Below, piece after piece: positions 1 through 61,149 of a stretch of DNA of 64,000 bases; within the stretch, counting starts at the first letter, position 1; every line of letters begins with the position of its first letter. The position numbers and the translations under genes were made by a program. Location of the stretch: assembly GCF_010731695.1 (NCBI RefSeq), contig NZ_AP022586.1:2232001-2296000 (forward strand). Direction: 5' to 3'. The notes below the pieces were generated by a model. The model searched no databases. It was not told the DNA's origin and saw only the letters and a list, made by a program, of their open reading frames with translations. Origin of the DNA: Mycolicibacterium litorale (GTDB taxonomy: Bacteria > Actinomycetota > Actinomycetes > Mycobacteriales > Mycobacteriaceae).

Positions 1-423
1 CTCGACCTGCGCCGAGCGGTTGTGTCGGGCCCGTTCCAGCAGCGTCGGCAGGGCGCCGATGTTGTGCGTGCCGAACACCACGTCCACCCACGGCGCGCGG
101 CGCAACACCGCATCCCGGTCCTTCTGCGCCAGGCAGCCCCCGACGGCGATCTGCATCTGCGGATCGGACTGTTTGCGCGGCGCGAGGTGGGACAGGTTGC
201 CGTAGAGCTTGTTGTCCGCGTTCTCGCGCACCGCACAGGTGTTGAAGACCACCACGTCGGCGTCGGCGCCCTCGGCGGCGCGCCGGTAACCGGCGGCTTC
301 CAGGAGCCCCGACAGCCGTTCGGAGTCGTGCACGTTCATCTGGCAGCCGTAGGTGCGAACCTGGTAGGTGCGCGCCACCGGCGGCTGCGCACTCGCCGCC
401 TGCTGCGTCACCGTGGAAGTCAC
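1..423 (-). CDS. miaB: MiaB tRNA methylthiotransferase, N-terminal part (cut by window edge)
   Basis: This is the 5' end (141 codons) of the radical-SAM enzyme that adds a 2-methylthio group to N6-isopentenyladenosine-37 of tRNAs. The visible part is the N-terminal UPF0004 domain. It starts with the family hallmark [16 protein letters not shown] and carries three conserved cysteines (in [14 protein letters not shown] and GGCLAQKD) that would bind the auxiliary iron-sulfur cluster. The radical-SAM CxxxCxxC motif and TRAM domain lie beyond base 1. The GTG at 423 is chosen because homology begins shortly after it, and an ATG slightly upstream (432) is out of frame. In M. tuberculosis miaB also lies close to recX/recA, which supports the call. 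It is divergent from gluA. Confidence 0.93.
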
Positions 424-497
424 GGCCCCATGGTACGGGGGCGCCGGATTGATCAGTTCCGGGCACATCAGGCGTTCCCTGGGTAAGGTCAGCACCC

Positions 498-1262
498 ATG
501 GAAACGGCCGGGCACGCCACTGCGGCAGTGCCGATGATCTCGATGCGGGGGGTCAACAAGCATTTCGGCGACCTCCACGTGCTCAAGGACATCGACTTGC
601 GGGTCGAGCGGGGTCAGGTCGTGGTGGTGCTCGGTCCTTCGGGTTCCGGCAAATCGACCCTGTGCCGCACGATCAACCGGCTCGAGACCATCGACTCGGG
701 CGAGATCGCGATCGACGGCGAGGTGCTGCCCGCCGAGGGCCGCAAGCTCGCGCAGTTGCGCTCCGATGTCGGCATGGTGTTCCAGTCCTTCAACCTGTTC
801 GCGCACAAGACGATCCTCGACAACGTCACGCTGGCTCCGATGAAGGTGCGCGGGCTCGGCAAGGAGTCGGCGCGCGAGGCGGCGATGAAGCTGCTCGAGC
901 GCGTCGGGGTGGCCAACCAGGCCGACAAGTATCCCGCGCAGCTGTCCGGCGGCCAGCAGCAACGCGTGGCGATCGCGCGTTCGCTCGCGATGAACCCCAA
1001 GGTGATGCTCTTCGACGAGCCGACCAGTGCGCTCGACCCGGAGATGATCAACGAGGTCCTGGCGGTGATGTCCGCGCTGGCGGCCGACGGGATGACCATG
1101 GTGGTGGTGACCCACGAGATGGGGTTCGCCCGCCGCGCGTCGGACCGTGTGGTGTTCATGTCCGACGGGGCCATCGTCGAGGACTCCGAACCCACCCAGT
1201 TCTTCGACAACCCGCAGACCGAACGCGCCAAGGACTTTCTCGGCAAGATCCTGCACCACTAA
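498..1262 (+). CDS. gluA: Glutamate-type polar amino acid ABC transporter, ATP-binding protein
   Basis: This 254-residue ABC ATPase energises the GluBCD importer at the inner face of the membrane. It has a Walker A motif GPSGSGKST at about residues 46-54, the signature LSGGQQQR near residue 157, a Walker B/D-loop [12 protein letters not shown], and a switch histidine in [10 protein letters not shown]. The last motif and the GlnQ/GluA-like length are typical of the polar amino acid uptake family. It is the first gene of gluABCD; gluB begins 25 bases downstream. Glutamate as substrate is inferred from the four-gene gluABCD arrangement, and glutamine or aspartate cannot be excluded. Confidence 0.92.
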
Positions 1263-1287
1263 CGCTCGGCGAAAGGAAACCCCACCC

Positions 1288-2118
1288 ATGCCGTCCTTCT
1301 CGATGCCGTCTCGTCGGCGCGTCGCGGCCGCCATCGCACTGGCCGTCGCCGTGCCCTTCGCCGCAACCGCATGCGGAGGCGGTGGCGGCGGTGACGAGAA
1401 CAAGATCGTGATCGGCACGAAGTTCGACCAGCCGGGCCTCGGTCTGCGAAACCCCGACGGCACGATGAGCGGGTTCGACGTCGACGTCGCCACCTACGTG
1501 GCAGGCGAACTGGGCTACTCCCCCGAGCAGATCGAGTGGAAGGAGTCGCCGTCCGGCCAGCGCGAGACGCTGATCCAGAACGATCAGGTCGACTACATCG
1601 TGGCCACCTACTCGATCACCGACTCCCGCAAGGAGAAGGTCGATTTCGCCGGGCCGTACCTGGTCACCGGGCAGAGCCTGCTCGTGCGTGAGGACAACAC
1701 CGACATCACCGGCGCCGCGTCGCTGCAGAACAACAAGCGGCTGTGTTCGGTGTCCGGGTCGACGCCCGCGCAGAAGATCAAGGACGAGTACCCGGGTGTG
1801 CAGCTGCAGCAGTACGACACCTATTCGGCGTGCATCGAGGCGCTGAAGAACGGCGCCATCGACGCGGTCACCACCGACGAGGTCATTCTGGCCGGTTACG
1901 CCGCGCAGACGCCCGGTGCGTTCAAGATCGTCGGCGACACGTTCTCCGAGGAGCGCTACGGTATCGGCCTGAAGAAGGACGACACCGAGATGCGCAACAA
2001 GATCAACGACGCGATCGAGAAGATGGAGTCCAGCGGCGCCTGGAAGGAAGCCTTCGACAAGAACCTCGGCCCGGCGGGCATCACGGCGCCCACCCCGCCG
2101 CAGGTCGATCGCTACTGA
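1288..2118 (+). CDS. gluB: Glutamate-binding lipoprotein of ABC transporter
   Basis: This 276-residue protein is the extracytoplasmic solute-binding subunit of the importer. It has a basic N-region (PSRRR), a hydrophobic stretch and a lipobox ending FAATAC, so Cys29 would be lipidated and anchor it to the outer face of the membrane. The rest is a type II periplasmic-binding fold (SBP_bac_3) with the typical KFDQPGLGLRNPDG and GFDVDVATYVA segments. The ATG at 1288 is preferred over in-frame upstream codons because it has a GAAAGGA ribosome site about 11 bases before it and because the signal peptide begins there. It sits between gluA and the two permease genes. Confidence 0.92.
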   Translation: MPSFSMPSRRRVAAAIALAVAVPFAATACGGGGGGDENKIVIGTKFDQPGLGLRNPDGTMSGFDVDVATYVAGELGYSPEQIEWKESPSGQRETLIQNDQVDYIVATYSITDSRKEKVDFAGPYLVTGQSLLVREDNTDITGAASLQNNKRLCSVSGSTPAQKIKDEYPGVQLQQYDTYSACIEALKNGAIDAVTTDEVILAGYAAQTPGAFKIVGDTFSEERYGIGLKKDDTEMRNKINDAIEKMESSGAWKEAFDKNLGPAGITAPTPPQVDRY

Positions 2119-2140
2119 TTCGGCAGGTCTGGCTCCGGCC

Positions 2141-2821
2141 GTGGAGATATTCACCGAGTACCGCGCACAGATCTTCGAGGCGTTCTGGACCACCATCCAG
2201 CTCACGATCTACTCCGCGGTCGGAGCGCTCGTCCTTGGCACCGTGCTGGCCGGGATGCGGTTATCGCCGGTGCCGATGCTGTCCTGGCTCGGCACCGCGT
2301 ATGTCAACATCGTCCGCAACACCCCGCTGACGCTGATCATCCTGTTCTGCTCGTTCGGGGTGTCCCAGACGCTCGGCATCACCCTGGTCGACCCGCAGTC
2401 GAGCACGTCGATCGAGGACAGCAACTTCCGGTTGGCGGTGCTCGGGTTGACCGTGTACACCGCGTCTTTCGTCTGCGAGACGGTGCGGTCGGGGGTCAAC
2501 ACGGTGCCGCTGGGCCAGGCCGAGGCGGCACGCTCGCTGGGGCTGACGTTCGCGCAGAACCTGCGGATGATCCTGTTGCCGCAGGCTTTTCGTGCGGTGG
2601 TCATCCCGCTCGGCTCGGTGTTGATCGCGTTGACGAAGAACACGACGATCGCGTCGGCGATCGGGGTGGCCGAGGCGGCGCTGCTGATGAAGGAGATGAT
2701 CGAGAACACTGCGGCGCTGCTCGTGGTCGGCTCGATCTTCGCCCTCGGGTTCGTCATCCTGACGCTGCCGCTGGGGCTGGTGTTCGGCTGGCTCGGCAAG
2801 CGGTTGGCGGTGGCTCGGTGA
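2141..2821 (+). CDS. gluC: Glutamate-type ABC transporter permease
   Basis: This 226-residue integral membrane protein is one half of the heteromeric channel. It has about five hydrophobic segments and the HEQRo/HisM-type EAA loop, seen as GQAEAARSLGLTFAQNLRMI, which docks on the ATPase. It starts with GTG 22 bases after gluB. Its stop codon TGA (2819-2821) shares one base with the ATG of the first unit of a 32-bp tandem repeat, an unusual junction described separately. Such GluC/GluD pairs are known from Corynebacterium glutamate uptake. Confidence 0.9.
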   Translation: MEIFTEYRAQIFEAFWTTIQLTIYSAVGALVLGTVLAGMRLSPVPMLSWLGTAYVNIVRNTPLTLIILFCSFGVSQTLGITLVDPQSSTSIEDSNFRLAVLGLTVYTASFVCETVRSGVNTVPLGQAEAARSLGLTFAQNLRMILLPQAFRAVVIPLGSVLIALTKNTTIASAIGVAEAALLMKEMIENTAALLVVGSIFALGFVILTLPLGLVFGWLGKRLAVAR

Positions 2822-2948
2822 TGAGCGCTTGCGCGAAGAACGGACGGACCCGATGAGCGCTTGCGCGAAGAACGGACGGACCCGATGAGCGCTTGCGCGA
2901 AGAACGGACGGACCCGATGAGCGCTTGCGCGAAGAACGGACGGACCCG
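2821..2948 (+). repeat. Four perfect 32-bp tandem repeats encoding coupled mini-ORFs (MIRU-like)
   Basis: ATGAGCGC occurs at 2821, 2853, 2885 and 2917, exactly 32 bases apart, and the four units are identical. Read from its ATG, each unit encodes MSACAKNGRTR and stops at a TGA that overlaps the next ATG (ATGA). The fourth stop overlaps the gluD start at 2949. Because 32 is not a multiple of three, each mini-ORF is in a different frame from its neighbour. This matches the published description of mycobacterial interspersed repetitive units, which sit between co-transcribed genes and carry small ORFs whose stop and start codons overlap those of the flanking genes. Membership of that family is inferred from the architecture, not from a sequence comparison. 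Confidence 0.9.
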
Positions 2949-3827
2949 ATGAGCGGCACCGTCCTGTTCGACGCGCCGGGACCCCGCGCCCGCGTCCGCA
3001 ACATGGTCGTCAGCGTGATCACCGTGGCGATCACCGTGCTGATCGCCTGGGTCGTGTACTCGCGACTCGAGGCGAAAGGCCAGCTGACCGCAGCGAAGTG
3101 GGAGCCGTTCCTGACGGCGAACCTGTGGACCACCTACGTGCTACCCGGTGTCCAGGGCACGCTGACGGCCGCCGCGGTCTCGATCGTGTTCGCGCTGGCC
3201 CTGGGCTTCCTGCTCGGAGTGGGCCGGATGTCCACCATCTCGCCGATCCGGTGGGCGTGCGCGGTCATCGTCGAGTTCTTCCGCGCGGTCCCCGTGCTGA
3301 TCATGATGATCTTCGCGTACTTCCTGTACGCCTTCTACGACGTGTTCGCCTCCGAGCACCTGGCGCTGGCCGGTGTCATCACCGGGCTCACCCTCTACAA
3401 CGGCGCGGTCATCGCCGAGATCGTGCGCGCCGGGGTGAACGCGCTGCCGCGCGGGCAGGCCGAAGCCGCATCGGCGCTGGGTCTGCGGTGGGGGCAGACC
3501 ATGCGCTCGATCCTGCTGCCGCAGGCCATCACCTCGATGCTGCCGGTGCTGGTCTCCCAACTCGTGGTGGTGCTGAAGGACACCGCGATCGGCTACCAGA
3601 TCACCTTCGTCGAGATGGTGCGTCAGGGCACCGTCGTCGGATCCTCCTACGGCAACTACATCCCCGCGCTCATCGTGATCGCCGCGCTGATGATCAGTGT
3701 GAACTTCGCGTTGTCGTCGTTGGCCACGCGGCTCGAACGCCGGATGCGGCGGTCGCGGCGCGGGCCGGCACCGCTGGAGGCTGAGGCTGTCGAGCAGGAA
3801 GGCGCACCGGGCGCGAAAGTCGTGTAG
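2949..3827 (+). CDS. gluD: Glutamate-type ABC transporter permease
   Basis: This 292-residue membrane permease is the partner of GluC. It has an N-terminal hydrophobic segment near residues 17-37, further membrane helices, and the EAA loop GQAEAASALGLRWGQTMRS. The C-terminus is charged and cytoplasmic (RLERRMRRSRRG). The ATG at 2949 is the natural start: it is the ATG that would begin a fifth copy of the upstream 32-bp repeat, but the sequence diverges right after ATGAGCG. Initiation is probably coupled to translation of the preceding mini-ORFs. It is the last gene of gluABCD and converges with the gene ending at 3855. Confidence 0.91.
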   Translation: MSGTVLFDAPGPRARVRNMVVSVITVAITVLIAWVVYSRLEAKGQLTAAKWEPFLTANLWTTYVLPGVQGTLTAAAVSIVFALALGFLLGVGRMSTISPIRWACAVIVEFFRAVPVLIMMIFAYFLYAFYDVFASEHLALAGVITGLTLYNGAVIAEIVRAGVNALPRGQAEAASALGLRWGQTMRSILLPQAITSMLPVLVSQLVVVLKDTAIGYQITFVEMVRQGTVVGSSYGNYIPALIVIAALMISVNFALSSLATRLERRMRRSRRGPAPLEAEAVEQEGAPGAKVV

Positions 3828-3854
3828 CGCCGTGCGCGTTGCGACGACCGGTCG

Positions 3855-4472
3855 TCACGGCGTCCACTCCGGTGAGCGGCCGAGGTGGCGCAGCACACGG
3901 TCCAGCAGGACGCCGTCGCCGGTGGGATCCACCGCCGGCGCGAACGGCGAACCCGGTGCGGTGCGGATGTCCCCGTCGGGCACCGCGAGGGCGATCGGCG
4001 CAACGCCGTCGACCACCTCGGCCGGGATGTCGAAGGGCAGGCCCATCGACCGGGCGACGTCCCAGCCGTGCACGACGTAGTCGACGAAGTGGAAGCCGAT
4101 CGCCTGCGCGCCGAGCACCTCGACATCGGGTCCGAACTCAGGAAGGGCGAAAGCCCTGTCCATCACACCGTCGACGGCGAAGGCCTCCAGCACGTCGCCG
4201 GCGGCCGCGGCGTAGACACCAGCGGGATCGTGGCGAACGGCGTCCGCCACAGCGGCAGGGTCCCACACTGCGTGGTCAGCGCCGTGCCCGCGGGCGGCTG
4301 CGGCGAATCCCCTGTGCTGCGCTGTCATGTGCGCAAGCAGGTCGGCGAGGTTCCAGTCGGTGCACGGGGTAGGCCTGGTCAGGTCGTTGCGCGAGACCCG
4401 GGAGACCAAGTCGACCGACTTCTCGATGGCGATGCGGTGCAAGCGAGACACGTCATTTGTATGCATGCGCAT
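3855..4472 (-). CDS. TIGR03086-type DinB-like protein (maleylpyruvate isomerase N-terminal fold)
   Basis: This 205-residue protein has the pattern of the actinobacterial TIGR03086 / mycothiol-dependent maleylpyruvate isomerase-like family: an N-terminal four-helix DinB-like bundle with TPCTDWNLADLLAHM, and later the metal-ligand-type histidine motif HFVDYVVHGWDVARS. These proteins are thought to bind a divalent metal and in some cases use mycothiol; the substrate here is unknown. Two starts are possible (ATG 4472, or ATG 4466 giving MHTND). It is divergently arranged with a MarR regulator across 45 bases, so the regulator may control it. Confidence 0.75.
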   Translation of the reverse strand: MRMHTNDVSRLHRIAIEKSVDLVSRVSRNDLTRPTPCTDWNLADLLAHMTAQHRGFAAAARGHGADHAVWDPAAVADAVRHDPAGVYAAAAGDVLEAFAVDGVMDRAFALPEFGPDVEVLGAQAIGFHFVDYVVHGWDVARSMGLPFDIPAEVVDGVAPIALAVPDGDIRTAPGSPFAPAVDPTGDGVLLDRVLRHLGRSPEWTP

Positions 4473-4517
4473 ATCATAGGCGACAGCGTATTAATCGTCC
4501 ACGCTTAAGATCAGCCC

Positions 4518-4946
4518 ATGACGTCGCCGCCCCAGCGTCCCGATCTGGCGGCGATGCTGGCGCCGCTGCTGAGGGAGACGGCCGCAGCCGAGCTGCCGGT
4601 GCTCGAAGAGCACGGTCTGACCATGTGGGGCTACAGCGTTCTCGTGGCGCTCGACCGCTCATCGATGCGCACCCAGGCCGCGCTGGCCGAGGCGATCCGC
4701 GCCGACAAGACCCGCATCATCCCCACGCTCGATGAATTGCAGGCCCAGGGTTACATCGAGCGCCGTCCCGACCCCGACGACCGCAGGGTGCGCCTGCTGG
4801 CGATCACCGAATCCGGTCGCGCGGTCAAAGACGCCGCCCAGACCGCCATCCAGCGCGGTGAGGACCGATGGCTGTCCAAGCTGTCTCCGACCGACCGCGA
4901 CGCCTTCCTCCGTGCGCTGCAACAGCTCACGGACGCGCAGCCGTAG
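4518..4946 (+). CDS. MarR-family transcriptional regulator
   Basis: This 142-residue winged-helix regulator shows the MarR core: a recognition-helix region TQAALAEAIRADKTRIIPTL followed by a wing with the hallmark RRPDPDDRRVRLLAITESG. MarR proteins are dimeric repressors that release DNA on binding small phenolic or other ligands. It is divergent from the TIGR03086-type gene, with a shared 45-base intergenic region at 4473-4517 that should hold both promoters and its operator. It converges almost end to end with recX (2 bases between stops). The ligand is unknown. Confidence 0.85.
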   Translation: MTSPPQRPDLAAMLAPLLRETAAAELPVLEEHGLTMWGYSVLVALDRSSMRTQAALAEAIRADKTRIIPTLDELQAQGYIERRPDPDDRRVRLLAITESGRAVKDAAQTAIQRGEDRWLSKLSPTDRDAFLRALQQLTDAQP

Positions 4947-4948
4947 CG

Positions 4949-5509
4949 CTACACCCGCCTGCGCTCGCGTTCGTTGGCCAGTTCGACGGTGACGACGTCG
5001 AGCGCCATCGACTGGCTGTAGCCGCGGCGGGCCAGCATGCCGGCCAGCCGTCGCTTCACCTTGAGCTCCGAGGCCGGGTCGTCGTCGAGTCTCTCCCGGC
5101 GCAGCCGGTCGCGGACCAGCTGTTCGGCCCGGTCACGTTCGGCGCCGGCGTCGATGTCGGCGAGTGACGAGGTGATCACCTCAGCGTCGACACCCTTGCG
5201 GCGCAGCTCGGCGGCCAACGCGCGCTTGCCTTTTCCGGCGTAGAGGTGACGCGACCGCACCCACTGTTCGGCGAAGTCCTCGTCGTCGAGGAGCCCGACC
5301 TTCGTCAACCGGTCGAGCACCCGCTGCGCGACCGGTTCGGAATAGCCTCGCTGGGTCAGCTTGCCGGCCAGCTCCGCACGGGTGCGTGCCCGCGCGGTGA
5401 GCAGGCGCAGACAATACGAGTGCGCCTGCTCGTCGCGGTCGGGGTCGTCGCGGTCGCGATCCTCGTCGGAGTCGGACTCAGAAGTCGACGGGCGCGGGGA
5501 GGACGTCAT
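4949..5509 (-). CDS. recX: RecX regulatory protein
   Basis: This 186-residue protein inhibits RecA filament extension and ATPase activity. It has the RecX three-helix repeats, seen in [24 protein letters not shown], the [14 protein letters not shown] motif and the C-terminal repeat [13 protein letters not shown]. An acidic tail of about 28 residues ([18 protein letters not shown]) precedes the family core. The ATG at 5509 lies inside the recA 3' end, giving a 32-base overlap, the typical mycobacterial recA-recX arrangement implying co-transcription and coupled translation. A later start within the acidic stretch is possible. Confidence 0.92.
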
Positions 5510-6521
5510 CAGCGGTCACCACAGCACCGATGTTGAGCTTCTCTTTGATCTTCTTCTCGATCTCGTTGGCCACATCGCCGTTCTCCAGCAGGAATTTCCG
5601 GGCGTTCTCCTTGCCCTGGCCCAGCTGCTCACCCTCGTAGGTGAACCAGGAACCGGACTTGCGGATGAAGCCGTGCTCCACGCCCATGTCGATGAGCGAG
5701 CCTTCCTTGCTGATGCCCTTGCCGTAGAGGATGTCGAACTCGGCCTGCTTGAACGGCGGCGAGACCTTGTTCTTGACGATCTTGACGCGGGTGCGGTTAC
5801 CGACCGCGTCGGTGCCGTCCTTGAGCGTCTCGATGCGGCGGACGTCCATGCGGACCGAGGCGTAGAACTTCAGCGCCTTACCGCCGGTGGTGGTCTCGGG
5901 TGAGCCGAACATCACGCCGATCTTCTCGCGCAGCTGGTTGATGAAGATCGCGGTGGTGCCCGAATTGCTCAGCGCGCCGGTGATCTTGCGCAGCGCCTGG
6001 CTCATCAACCGGGCCTGCAGGCCGACGTGGCTGTCACCCATCTCACCCTCGATCTCGGCGCGCGGCACCAGTGCCGCGACCGAGTCGATGACCAGGATGT
6101 CCAGCGCACCGGAGCGGATCAGCATGTCGGCGATCTCGAGGGCCTGCTCACCGGTGTCGGGCTGGGAGACCAGCAGTGAGTCGGTGTCCACCCCGAGCTT
6201 CTTGGCGTAGTCGGGATCCAGCGCGTGCTCGGCGTCGATGAACGCCGCGATACCGCCGGCGGCCTGGGCGTTGGCCACCGCGTGCAGCGCCACCGTGGTC
6301 TTACCCGAGGATTCCGGACCGTAGATCTCGATGACGCGGCCGCGGGGCAGACCGCCGATGCCCAGCGCGACGTCCAGGGCGATGGAGCCGGTCGGGATGA
6401 CCGAGATCGGCGCGCGGACCTCGTCGCCGAGCCGCATCACCGAGCCTTTACCGTGACTCTTCTCGATCTGCGCGAGCGCCAGCTCGAGGGCCTTCTCGCG
6501 ATCGGGTGCCTGCGGTGCCAT
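5478..6521 (-). CDS. recA: RecA recombinase
   Basis: This 347-residue protein is the strand-exchange recombinase and LexA co-protease. It has the Walker A motif GPESSGKTT, Walker [10 protein letters not shown], and the DNA-binding loop region [19 protein letters not shown]. The sequence is continuous across the Walker A and other common insertion points, so there is no intein, unlike M. tuberculosis RecA. The ATG at 6521 (MAPQAPD) is preferred over the ATG four codons upstream because GGAG sits about 8 bases before it and the known mycobacterial proteins begin there. Two damage-response elements lie upstream (6576-6598 and 6656-6669). Confidence 0.97.
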
Positions 6522-12415: not shown

Positions 12416-14992
12416 TCACTCGGCGTCTGCGCCGTTGGCGTCGCTGCCGCCGCGGATCAGGGCCAGCGTGCCGGCGAGCTCGTCGGGTTTGACCAGCACC
12501 TCGCGCGCCTTGGAACCCTCCGACGGCCCGACGATGCCGCGGGTCTCCATGAGGTCCATCAGCCGGCCCGCCTTGGCGAAGCCCACCCGCAGCTTGCGCT
12601 GCAGCATCGAGGTCGACCCGAACTGGCTGGACACCACGAGCTCGACGGCCTGCAGGAAGACGTCCATGTCGTCGCCGATGTCCGGGTCGACGTCCTTGCG
12701 CTCGCCGGCCTTGGCCGCGGTGACGCCCTCGACGAACTCCGGCTCGGCCTGGTCCTTGGTCGCGGTGACGACGGCCTGGATCTCCTCGTCGGTGATGAAC
12801 GCACCCTGCAGCCGGATGGGTTTGCCCGCGCCCATCGGGAGGAACAGCCCGTCGCCCATACCGATCAGCTTCTCCGCGCCGGGCTGGTCGAGGATGACGC
12901 GGCTGTCCGTCAGCGACGAGGTGGCGAACGCCAGCCGCGACGGCACGTTGGTCTTGATCAGACCGGTGACGACGTCCACCGACGGCCGCTGCGTGGCCAG
13001 CACCAGGTGGATACCCGCGGCGCGGGCCTTCTGGGTGATGCGCACGATCGCATCCTCGACGTCGCGCGGGGCGGTCATCATCAGGTCGGCGAGCTCGTCG
13101 ACGATCGCGAGGATGTAGGGGTAGGGCTTGTAGACCCGCTCACTGCCCAGCGGCGCGGTGATCTCGCCGGACCGCACCTTCTCGTTGAACACGTCGATGT
13201 GCCGCACCCGCGAGGCCTGCATGTCCTGGTAGCGCTGCTCCATCTCCTCGACCAGCCAGGCCAGCGCCGCGGCGGCCTTCTTCGGTTCGGTGATGATCGG
13301 CGTGATCAGGTGCGGGATGCCCTCGTACGGGGTGAGCTCGACCATCTTCGGGTCGATCAGGATCATCCTGACCTCGTCGGGGGTGGCGCGCGCGAGCAGC
13401 GACACCAGCATCGAGTTGACGAAGCTGGACTTACCCGAACCGGTCGACCCGGCGACCAGCAGGTGGGGCATCTTGGCGAGGTTGGCCGAGATGAAGTCGC
13501 CCTCGATGTCCTTGCCGAGCCCGATCACCAGCGGGTGGTGGTCGCGCCGGGTGGACGGTGCGGTGAGCACGTCGGCGAGGCGCACCATCTCGCGATCGGT
13601 GTTGGGCACCTCGATACCGACGGCCGACTTGCCCGGGATCGGCGCGAGCATCCGCACACTCTCGGTGGCCACGGCGTAGGCGATGTTGCGCTGCAGCGCG
13701 GTGATCTTCTCGACCTTCACGCCGGGGCCGAGTTCGACCTCGTAGCGGGTAACGGTCGGTCCGCGGGTGCAGCCGGTGACCGCGGCGTCGACCTTGAACT
13801 GCTGCAGCACCGAGGTGATGGCTTCTTCCATCTTCTCGTTGGCGGCGCTGCGCAGCTTCGGCGGATCGCCGGCGATCAGCAGGTCCAGCGACGGCAGGGC
13901 GTAGGGGCCTTCGACGACCCGGTCGAGCGACAGGGTGTCCTGGTCGTCGGCGGGCTTCTCCGGGGCCGGCTTCTTGCGCTTGGGTTTCGGCGCCGGTGCG
14001 GGCGGCAGCGCGGCGAGCTCGGGCAGTGTGGGCGGGTCGCTCTCGGGCGGATCGAGCGGATAGTTGTCCATCGGCGAACCGGACGGCCAGAGCTGCTCGT
14101 CGCGTGAGATCGCCGGGTCGTCGTAGTAGCCGTCCGAGAAGTCGTCGGCCGCACCGATTTCCGGTTCGTCGTCGTAGCCGCCGTCTTCGTCGCGGTAGTC
14201 GCCGTCTTCGTCGCGGTAGTCGTCGTACTCGTCGTAGTCGTCGTAGTCGTCGTCGTAGCCGCGGGTGGAGAACATCGCCCGCACGGTCTCGGGCACTTCG
14301 CGGATCGTCGTCCCGGTGACCAGCAGCAGGCCGAACAGGACCCCGATGAACAGCAGCGGTGCGGCGATCCATGCGGTGAGCCCGTCGGCGAGCGGACCGC
14401 CGATCGCGAAGCCGATGAATCCGGCGGCCTGCTGCCGCTCCCCCGGCACGTGCGGCGACCCCGACCACAGGTGCCACAGCCCGAGCGCCGGGAGCGTGAT
14501 CATCGCCGAACCGAGGATCAGCCGCGGACGCGCCTCGGGGTCGGGTTCACTGCGCATGAGCACGACGGCCACGGCCGCGAGCACGAGCGGGACGAGCACC
14601 ACCGCGTCGCCGACGAGCGAGCGCAGCACCATGTCGATCCACTCGCCCACCGGGCGGGCGGCGTCGAACCACGACCCGGCGGCCACGACGACGGCGACCC
14701 CCAGCAGTGCCAGGGCGATGCCGTCGCGACGGTGCCCGGGCTCGATCTCGCGGGCGCGGCCGACGGAGCGCGCCGTGGATCCGGCGCCCTTGGCCAGCAT
14801 CAGCCACCCGGCGCGGGCTCCGCGCCCCACGGCGGCGCCGGCGGCCCCGACCGGTGACGGATGCCGGCGCGGCGCGGGCTTGCGCCGGGGCGCGGACGAC
14901 TTCGCGGGCCGACTCGGCCGGGCCCCGCTCCGCGTTCCGCCCTTTGACCTGCTCGTACGGGCGCCGGAGCGGGTGACGGTCTTACCAGCCAT
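12416..14992 (-). CDS. ftsK: DNA translocase FtsK
   Basis: This 858-residue division-associated DNA pump segregates chromosome termini at the septum. It has an Arg/Ser/Pro-rich N-tail of about 80 residues, then about four membrane helices, then an unusual Asp/Tyr-rich linker ([15 protein letters not shown] and repeats, around residues 240-280). The motor follows: Walker [12 protein letters not shown], Walker [12 protein letters not shown], and the RecA-like ATPase. A C-terminal gamma winged helix ([20 protein letters not shown]) reads the KOPS polarity signals. Length fits mycobacterial FtsK. It converges with argA. Confidence 0.95.
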
Positions 14993-58383: not shown

Positions 58384-61149
58384 CTAGGTCCTCGCCTTCT
58401 CCACGAGTTCGTACGTCTCGATGATGTCGCCCTCTTTGATATCCGAGTACGTCAGCGTCAAACCGCACTCGTAACCTTCGCGGACCTCGGTGGCGTCGTC
58501 CTTCTCCCGCTTGAGCGACGACACGGTGAGGTTCTCGGCCACCACCACGTTGTCGCGCAGCAGCCGGGCCTTGGCGTTGCGCCGCATGATGCCGGACTGG
58601 ACGAGGCAGCCGGCGATGTTGCCGACCTTCGACGACCGGAAGATCGCGCGGATCTCGGCGCGGCCGAGCTCCCGCTCTTCGTAGATCGGCTTGAGCATGC
58701 CCTTGAGCGCGCTCTCGATCTCGTCGATCGCCTGGTAGATCACCGAGTAGTACCGGATCTCCACGCCTTCGCGGTTGGCCAGTTCGGTGGCCTTGCCCTC
58801 GGCGCGGACGTTGAACCCGATGATGATCGCGTCCGACGCCGACGCCAGGTTGACGTTGGTCTCGGTGACACCACCGACGCCGCGGTCGATGACGCGCAGT
58901 TCCACCTCGTCGTCCACCTGGATGCCCATCAGGGCCTCCTCCAGCGCCTCGACGGTGCCGGAGTTGTCGCCCTTGAGGATCAGGTTCAGCTGGCTGGTTT
59001 CCTTCAGCGCCGAATCCAGGTCCTCGAGGCTGATGCGCTTGCGGCTGCGGGCGGCCAGTGCGTTGCGCTTGCGCGCGCTGCGCCGGTCGGCGATCTGCCG
59101 GGCGATGCGGTCCTCGTCGACGACCAGCAGGTTGTCACCGGCACCGGGCACCGACGTGAAGCCGATGACCTGCACCGGCCGCGACGGCGTGGCCGCCTCG
59201 ACGTCGTCGCCGTGCTCGTCGACCATGCGGCGCACACGCCCGTAGGCGTCGCCCGCGACGATCGAGTCGCCGACCCGCAGCGTGCCGCGCTGGATGAGCA
59301 CGGTCGCCACCGGGCCGCGGCCACGGTCGAGGTGCGCCTCGATCGCCACACCCTGGGCCTCCATGTCGGGGTTCGCCCGCAGGTCCAGAGCGGCGTCGGC
59401 GGTCAGCAGGACCGCCTCGAGCAGCGCGTCGATGTTGGTGCCCTGCTTGGCCGAGATGTCGACGAACATGGTGTCGCCACCGAAGTCCTCCGCCACCAGG
59501 CCGTACTCGGTGAGCTGACCGCGGATCTTGGCCGGGTCGGCACCCTCCTTGTCGATCTTGTTGACCGCCACCACGATCGGCACGTCAGCGGCCTGCGCGT
59601 GGTTGATGGCCTCCACCGTCTGCGGCATGACGCCGTCGTCGGCGGCGACCACGAGGATCGCGATGTCGGTGGCCTTCGCACCGCGGGCACGCATGGCGGT
59701 GAACGCCTCGTGACCCGGGGTGTCGATGAAGGTGATGAGCCGTTCGTTGCCGTCGTGGTCGACGGCCACCTGGTAGGCACCGATGTGCTGGGTGATGCCG
59801 CCGGCCTCGCCCTCGCGGACGTTGGCCTGCCGGATCGTGTCGAGCAGTCGGGTCTTGCCGTGGTCGACGTGGCCCATGACGGTGACGACCGGCGGACGGA
59901 TCTCGAGGTCCTCCTCGCCGCCCTCGTCCTCGCCGTAGGTGAGGTCGAACGACTCCAGCAGCTCGCGGTCCTCGTCCTCGGGGGACACGACCTGCACGAC
60001 GTAGTTCATCTCGCTGCCGAGCAGCTCGAGGGTCTCGTCGTTCACCGACTGCGTCGCGGTGACCATCTCGCCGAGGTTGAACAGCGCCTGGACCAGCGAG
60101 GCCGGGTTGGCGTTGATCTTCTCGGCGAAGTCCGACAGCGACGCGCCGCGGGCCAGCCGGATGGTCTCGCCGTTGCCGTGCGGCAACCGCACGCCACCGA
60201 CGACCGGCGCCTGCATGTTCTCGTATTCTGCGCGTTTCGCCCGCTTCGACTTGCGACCCCGCTTCGGGGCGCCGCCGGGACGGCCGAACGCACCCGCAGC
60301 GCCACCGCGCTGTCCGGGCCGTCCACCGCCACCGGGACGACCGCGGAAGCCTCCGGCCGCCGCGCCGCCTCCGGCACCGCCACCGGCGCCACCACCGCGG
60401 TAGTTGCCGCCACCGCCGCCGGCGCCGCCACCCGGGCGACCGCCACCGGCCGGACCACGGCCACCGGGGCCGGGGCGCGGACCGCCGGGACGACCCGCGG
60501 GGGCACCCGGACGGGGGCCGGCGGGACGCGGCGGCATGTTGTTCGGCGACATGCCGGGACGCGGCGTGCCGGGCCGGGGTGCGCCGGGACGCGGCTGCGG
60601 CCGCGGGATCGGTCGCTCGACCGGCTGCTGCGTGGAGAACGGGTTGTTGCCGACCCGCGGGGTCCGCGGAGCGGGCTTGGGCGCCGGAGGGCCGGGACGC
60701 GGGCCGGGGGTGGGCCCCGGACGCGAGGGAGCCGGTGCCGGTGCCGAGGCCGCGGGCTGGGCCGGGGCGGGTGCCGGTACGGACGCCGCAGGCTGGGCCG
60801 GTGCGGCCGGTTGCGGCGCGGGCGCGGGCGCCGCGGGCTTGGGGGCCGCGGGCTTGGCCGGGCTGGGTGCCGCCGGTGTCGGCGACGGGGCCGGAGCGGC
60901 GGCAGCGGCAGCCGCGGCGGCGGGCGTCGCGGGGGTGGGCGCGGGTGCGGACGGAGCACCGTTGCCTGCGCTCTTGGCCGGCGCGGATTTGCTGCCGAAC
61001 TTCTCGCGCAACCGGCGCGCAACGGGTGCTTCCACGGTCGAAGAAGCGGATTTGACGAACTCACCCTGCTCTTTGAGCGTTGCGAGGAGTTCTTTGCTGG
61101 TGACACCGAGTTCCTTCGCCAACTCGTGTACGCGAGCCTTACCTGCCAC
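58384..61149 (-). CDS. infB: Translation initiation factor IF-2
   Basis: This 921-residue GTPase places initiator tRNA on the 30S subunit. It has the IF2 N-terminal domain ([20 protein letters not shown]), a very long Ala/Pro then Gly/Pro/Arg-rich low-complexity region from about residue 60 to 330, and the G domain with [14 protein letters not shown] (G1), IDTPGHEAF (G3) and [10 protein letters not shown] (G4). The C-terminal beta-barrel and tRNA-binding domains complete it. It lies between ylxR and rbfA. The repetitive N-terminal region is the most variable part of this window. Confidence 0.97.

Follow-up and report, generated by a model that had tools for sequence, protein, structure and literature searches.

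What is a chain of four overlapping mini-ORFs doing between the two permease genes of one transporter operon? We analysed a window of 64,000 nucleotides from Mycolicibacterium litorale (contig NZ_AP022586.1, positions 2,232,001 to 2,296,000). At 498-3827 of this window, an ATPase, a family 3 solute-binding protein and two permeases are predicted, the composition expected of an amino-acid transporter (Table 1). The names gluA to gluD are taken from an initial annotation made from the sequence; we identified the homologues as “-like”, and the names do not fix the substrate. For the gluA-like product, the best NCBIfam model was GlnQ, with 327 bits, under its cut-off of 379.

We verified the layout of the repeat between gluC and gluD. 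A single tandem array was detected by TRF at 2820-2955, with a period of 32, 4.2 copies and 100% matches. The four identical 32-bp units of the initial annotation were confirmed, each an 11-codon frame (MSACAKNGRTR) followed by a TGA that overlaps the following ATG. The array does lie in the span given for it, 2819..2951, although that span ends one base short of the last stop (2952). The coupling by ATGA that had been described throughout the chain is present at four of the five junctions, including the entry into gluD, as 4-nt overlaps. It does not extend to the entry from gluC, where the gluC stop shares its A with the first mini-ORF ATG (TGATG, -1 overlap). By sequence reading, the passage from gluC to gluD via the array needs five initiations. 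A 17-base piece of the repeat core had four matches in the window at ≤2 mismatches, compared with a shuffle mean of 0.05. A 15-base piece had 22 exact matches in the genome, all 22 preceded by ATGA, compared with 0 for the reversed pattern. Assembly error alone is an unlikely source of the four copies, because the genome is one contig and other species have their own arrays between gluC and gluD.

Table 1 Features of the transporter operon and its repeat array, in window coordinates
Feature	Coordinates	Strand	Mini-ORF	Stop codon	Basis or remark
gluA-like, ABC transporter ATP-binding protein	498..1262	+			PF00005, E 7.9e-37
gluB-like, solute-binding protein family 3	1288..2118	+			PF00497, E 2.7e-29
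gluC-like, ABC permease	2141..2821	+		TGA 2819-2821	PF00528, E 3.8e-14
Predicted hairpin, unit 1	2818..2841	+			foot GT (2818-2819)/AC (2840-2841); stem GCG/CGC; loop CTTG (2828-2831)
Repeat unit 1	2821..2852	+	MSACAKNGRTR, 2821-2856	TGA 2854-2856	TRF and sequence reading
Repeat unit 2	2853..2884	+	2853-2888	TGA 2886-2888	inner foot pair C.A, lost
Repeat unit 3	2885..2916	+	2885-2920	TGA 2918-2920	TRF and sequence reading
Repeat unit 4	2917..2948	+	2917-2952	TGA 2950-2952	stop overlaps gluD ATG (2949)
gluD-like, ABC permease	2949..3827	+			PF00528, E 8.7e-21

We searched the region for signals that could act independently of the array. No sigma-70-like promoter was detected in 2100-3000 (0.1 in shuffles), and no Rfam family reached its gathering score in 1-6500. 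Three terminator-like matches in 2100-3000 (0.4 in shuffles) are all inside gluC, at 2572-2663. The complementarity of the linkers to the anti-Shine-Dalgarno sequence showed no excess over their own shuffles (-4.23 versus -4.37), and we rejected on this basis the idea that a Shine-Dalgarno sequence in the linkers starts the following gene independently. Since the linkers have no ribosome-binding strength beyond their composition, coupling fits better than independent starts.

We then determined the range of the repeat. Its core, ATGAGCGCT[T/C]GCGCGAAGA (also written DTGAGCGCT[T/C]GCGCGAAGA), has 40 copies in the M. litorale genome, and 196 of the 297 genomes searched in the genus carry it; the reversed control gave 0 matches in all 297. 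Five further arrays in the M. litorale genome have the 32-base spacing as well, but other linkers. Across the order, 52 out of 397 genomes match the core. Within the family it occurs in this genus only (none of the 38 genomes from ten other genera has it), and beyond the family it was found in 19 of 24 genomes of family f2, four of f12, one of f6 and one of f4. Tandem cores occur at at least 120 loci in named genomes; among the 80 listed with titles, 75 are mycobacterial and 5 are other MAG loci. At the 14 f2 loci that we read for core pairs, the cores are separated by 75-121 bases at 13 and by 184 bases at the other. In 10 of these 14 (L291-L295, L297, L300, L301, L303, L304), cores alternate with a second DTGA-joined module. 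This second module carries GAGCATCGCAG close to its start and, in most cases, a stretch resembling GAGGAGCGGAGCGA, and forms a composite relay with the cores. A core-like sequence with 2 mismatches also lies about 260 bases ahead of the window start (G000:C1:2231726-2231744). Carriage of the core by phages was rejected, as only two stretches with it, on 2 viral contigs, were found in the viral collection. A literature search did not find the core string, returned only chance words for further repeat sequence and peptide strings, and found no publication combining “DTGA” and “MIRU”.

One account of the four identical copies is simple, functionless tandem slippage, in which the ATGA layout would be a chance by-product of copying a gene start fourfold. 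The identity of the units within the array agrees with this, but the core is conserved over many independent sites and species while its reversed control is not found at all, and it is subject to the frame and foot constraints described below. We consider this account very improbable, and slippage may be a source of copy number within an array.

We examined the positions of the repeat in its own genome, where the initial annotation had suggested a search at other intercistronic sites. Using a slightly relaxed core, and genes called by a simple gene finder based on codon usage and trained on the window, we counted 33 distinct sites. At 28 of them the element lies in sense between two co-directional genes. 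Of the remaining five, one is followed by an opposite gene, one was called within a gene and three are flanked on both sides by opposite-strand genes. At L051, which was called opposite-flanked, a 366-codon open frame also ends at the TGA of the element. At L018 (G000:C1:4796976), the element is an in-frame insertion of about 11 codons within a gene that is uninterrupted in the relatives G206 and G253. Among the 25 sites with a near upstream stop, this stop overlaps the core ATG in 20, as the TGA of the core ATGA in 8 and of TGATGA in 12. Likewise, 25 sites have a downstream gene close by; in 20 of them the mini-ORF stop overlaps its start (by 4 or 1 nt), and the other two frames would do so in 1 and 4.

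This arrangement is close to that of MIRUs, as the initial annotation had proposed: the repeat is dispersed and also tandem, lies at stop/start overlaps (28 of 33 sites) and carries an ORF that overlaps both neighbours. Supply et al. reportedly described in 1997 that MIRUs insert at DTGA sites, the stop/start overlaps of co-directional genes. The CTTG loop of the 32-bp repeat presumably also resembles MIRU. Among our pairs of empty and filled sites, some empty sites are TAGTG or other overlaps and not DTGA. MIRUs are described as apparently mobile elements that insert at start codons and carry an ORF coupled at -4 nt, which would limit insertion damage (PMC12548453).

We compared presence and absence between close relatives. 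The comparison covered 31 of the 33 sites in the near relatives G206 and G253 only (60 regions), two of the four genomes searched; it left out L010, treated as gluC-gluD, and L050, and L001 and L017 were each read in one relative. At 14 of the 31 sites no relative read has the exact core, and another 14 differ between G206 and G253. We excluded 11 of the 40 core-less comparisons, which were multi-copy, had no gap or had two gaps. In the 29 single-copy, single-gap comparisons that we used, the gap in the relative is 31-34 nt in 15 (32 in 8) and 16 to 29 in the others. Some of these differences may be losses; in G253, L022 resembles a deletion between short repeats.

We assessed whether the frame from the element to the next gene is the one a relay predicts. 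For named arrays, 77 out of 112 had a near downstream gene among the matches listed, and the mini-ORF stop overlaps its start in 52 of these 77, compared with 6 and 7 in the other frames. Taking only sites with distinct downstream proteins, the (last) core ATG is in the coupled frame in 64 of 83 (null 1/3). The usual unit length of 32 contributes part of this signal. With starts at exactly 32 nt left out, 25 of 44 sites are still in the coupled frame (p 0.0012). The coupled distances in the M. litorale genome are 23, 26, 29, 32, 35, 38, 50 and 68; all are 2 mod 3 by construction of the overlap, and the quantity tested is the share of sites reaching one. The frame signal is what a relay predicts, beyond what a fixed unit length alone fully explains, and the coupled mini-ORF relay gains comparative support as a conserved design.

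The initial annotation had also stated that the chain keeps terminating and reinitiating whatever the copy number. The periods of the 123 named arrays listed are 32 in 66, 33 in 34, 30 in 11, 31 in 8 and 29, 34 or 35 in 4, so that 69 are 2 mod 3, 45 are 0 and 9 are 1. The statement is correct for the 69 arrays with a period of 2 mod 3 and fails for the others. With periods of 30 and 33 the units share one frame, and they therefore fuse unless the linker holds a stop. Among the arrays whose period is divisible by three, those with a downstream gene nearby give a weak frame signal (12 of 24, p 0.068).

The gluC-gluD junction itself could be compared across many species. We found a gluC match in 181 of the 297 genomes and read the best-scoring 90 of these 181 junctions, 89 of which were resolved. 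The exact core is present in 18 of the 89 and missing from 71. The filled junctions have four copies in 2, three in 2, two in 5 and one in 9, so copy number at this junction differs between species, at 0, 1, 2, 3 or 4. In 16 of the 18 filled junctions (the exceptions are G027 and G137), the mini-ORF stop overlaps the start of the gluD frame. In 70 of the 71 core-less junctions some stop, not necessarily that of gluC, overlaps the gluD start. Filled and empty neighbours are comparable, for example G093 or G136 with G024 or G292. The stop/start overlap in these 16 of 18 junctions, together with that at 20 of 25 sites in the M. litorale genome, gives the relay comparative support.

A few genomes with no exact core at gluC-gluD (G163, G079, G179, G185) have degenerate or longer forms there. 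In G079 (L121), short units are mixed with a longer one bearing an insert, TGGGGGCACCTCCCG...GGGGGAGA, which we take to resemble a longer, MIRU-like form. In G054 (L119) and G019 (L146), a different, longer palindromic repeat of the GCGAGCAGACAC...GTGTCTGCTCGC type lies at gluC-gluD, so several repeat families seem to land at this junction.

Copy number at this junction was central to the initial interpretation, a variable translational attenuator. In such a reading, selection would act on the number of units to fix the GluC:GluD ratio, with some reinitiating ribosomes lost at each. The range of 0-4 copies across the 89 resolved junctions and the five initiations required here would suit such a device. 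The element is however present at 33 sites in the same genome and at many other junctions of other species, and 71 of the 89 gluC-gluD junctions have no exact core. An attenuator dedicated to a single transporter subunit is not supported by this distribution, and we regard selection on copy number as improbable.

We favour, as the probable explanation, a 32-bp interspersed repeat that occupies stop/start junctions and is tandemly expanded here, with mini-ORFs that likely allow stepwise reinitiation from gluC to gluD. A ribosome leaving gluC would terminate, reinitiate on each overlapping mini-ORF in turn and so reach gluD, which presupposes that the mini-ORFs are translated. The effect would likely be mainly passive: the insertion would be tolerated because coupling survives, perhaps with a graded loss of GluD per unit. 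The repeat would in this way likely spread without cutting operons apart, and we see in it, most simply, a MIRU-like interspersed element that likely preserves translational coupling. The repeat is presumed to be mobile, although no enzyme was found.

We looked for structural constraints on the element. The predicted hairpin of unit 1 has, between foot and stem, GA/GA, T-A and GA/GA. Sheared G.A pairing is established chemistry, and the GA/GA positions would form such pairs. The foot joins the dinucleotide that precedes ATGA, with a G in between, to the dinucleotide that follows GAAGA. We evaluated the foot at 106 independent sites, which remained from 151 first copies (own sites and named arrays) once those sharing flank peptides were removed. 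The inner pair is Watson-Crick in 101 and wobble in 4, compared with a mean of 53.6 and a maximum of 70 in 5000 shuffles. The outer pair is Watson-Crick in 78 and wobble in 2, compared with a mean of 54.1 and a maximum of 68, also in 5000 shuffles. Most other registers are near expectation and a few are below it; the ninth upstream base with the first base after GAAGA is moderately above (58 versus 42). In the TGATGA class the foot T belongs to the upstream stop, and with it the partner changes from G to A. In four empty/filled pairs (G024/G093, L061/G253, L020/G206 and L052/G206), the 5' base of the inner foot was apparently in the host before insertion; the foot partner in L052 is a wobble. 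With wobbles counted, the inner pair is present in 176 of 182 first copies compared with 141 of 182 internal tandem copies, and the 41 internal copies that lost it include units 2-4 here (C.A mismatch). The covariation of the foot is strong, and it may reflect either spreading at the DNA level or a function at the RNA level. Under the favoured reading, the hairpin would either serve spreading or hold the ATG until a ribosome terminates upstream.

The RNA-level alternative is a structured mRNA signal, selected as RNA, in which the start of the mini-ORF would be masked by the hairpin until a ribosome that terminates upstream opens it. The foot covariation is consistent with this, as are the upstream stop inside the 5' arm of the hairpin at 20 own sites and the RNA fold of a 27-base segment of unit 1, in which the proposed pairs form. 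When the 87-base junction containing one unit is folded, however, the core pairs with gluC sequence and the hairpin is absent, and the typed version with a C:G foot prefers another structure. Most changes at the first base of the inner stem lack compensation (24 A.C, 6 C.C, 3 A.G and 2 T.C, compared with 8 A:T and 2 C:G). The foot pair is also found at sites called antisense or intragenic, and its loss from the 41 internal copies likewise argues against selection as RNA, which we consider rather unlikely.

At the DNA level, the repeat could be a REP-like hairpin moved by a Y1 (RAYT/IS200-like) transposase, its preference for junctions reflecting mere tolerance of insertion. Two features point in this direction: the predicted hairpin, which is short and carries the tetranucleotide ATGA within its 5' arm, and the inner foot pair, which is retained off tight junctions (L016, L017, L018, L051, L059). 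The Y1 transposase family PF01797 has no match in the M. litorale genome, however, and the core is equally common in genomes with a PF01797 match (39 of 58) and overall (196 of 297); a Y1 transposase was rejected as partner for these two reasons. The scarcity of the core in viral contigs, 2 in number, and the non-random frame to the next gene also weigh against REP-like movement, which we judge unlikely, if slightly less so than selection as RNA.

A further reading, tentative and with perhaps a little more to recommend it than the REP-like one, is a 32-nt mobile hairpin that chooses its landing site by base pairing of the foot while the mini-ORF keeps the operon coupled. Pairing would join the two host bases ahead of the stop to the two that follow GAAGA in the element, and sub-versions with AC, GC and CC feet would land at different stop-codon registers. 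If true, this would be a new kind of coupling-preserving mobile DNA, moved by some non-Y1 enzyme.

We compared the repeat to known systems, by description and not by sequence in the case of MIRUs. The MIRUs of senX3-regX3 have 77- and 53-bp units in variable copy numbers (PMC4213456, PMC2453075) and are confined to M. leprae and the tuberculosis complex (PMC4213456), whereas MIRUs in general occur in many mycobacteria (PMC12548453). As far as the available parts of these reports go, the 32-bp repeat shares dispersal in the genome, tandem copies in variable number and an internal ORF that overlaps the downstream start (20 of 25 own sites, 16 of 18 gluC-gluD junctions) and the upstream stop (20 of 25). 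It differs in its unit of 29-35 bp, mostly 32 or 33, compared with 53-77, and in its range, with carriers among 196 of the 297 genomes of the genus and also elsewhere in the order, in other families, compared with the narrower range of the senX3-regX3 MIRUs. It also has a covarying hairpin foot, absent from the MIRU descriptions in the portions available. Because of its unit length, wider range and covarying foot, we would set the repeat apart from MIRUs as described there.

Like REP and REPIN elements associated with RAYT, the repeat is short and dispersed. Those elements form hairpins; for the repeat a hairpin is predicted, with strong covariation of the foot, weak compensation in the inner stem and folds that differ with context. 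The repeat has 40 copies here compared with >100 for REP elements in the accessible part of that report (PMC2817692). It also differs from them in its sense orientation at gene junctions, its start and stop codon, the coding constraint evident in its non-random frame to the next gene, and the missing Y1 association noted above. With termination-reinitiation at overlapping genes it shares -4 or -1 nt overlaps at every array junction (coupling at -4 is described, in the part of the text available, in PMC12548453). It differs in being a chain of four mini-ORFs between two genes that is missing in most relatives read.

The many species, the empty and filled sites and the 0-4 copies at one junction form a large natural data set, suited to the question of repeated ribosome reinitiation along chains of overlapping mini-ORFs in bacteria. 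The covarying foot bases are tied to the stop codon of the upstream gene. These observations suggest that coupling-preserving insertion, as described for MIRUs, is a general strategy in this bacterial order, and it could explain the pile-up of such repeats inside operons. Elsewhere in the window, TRF detected other tandem repeats at 14165-14262 and 60734-60806, with periods of 21 bp and 36 bp.
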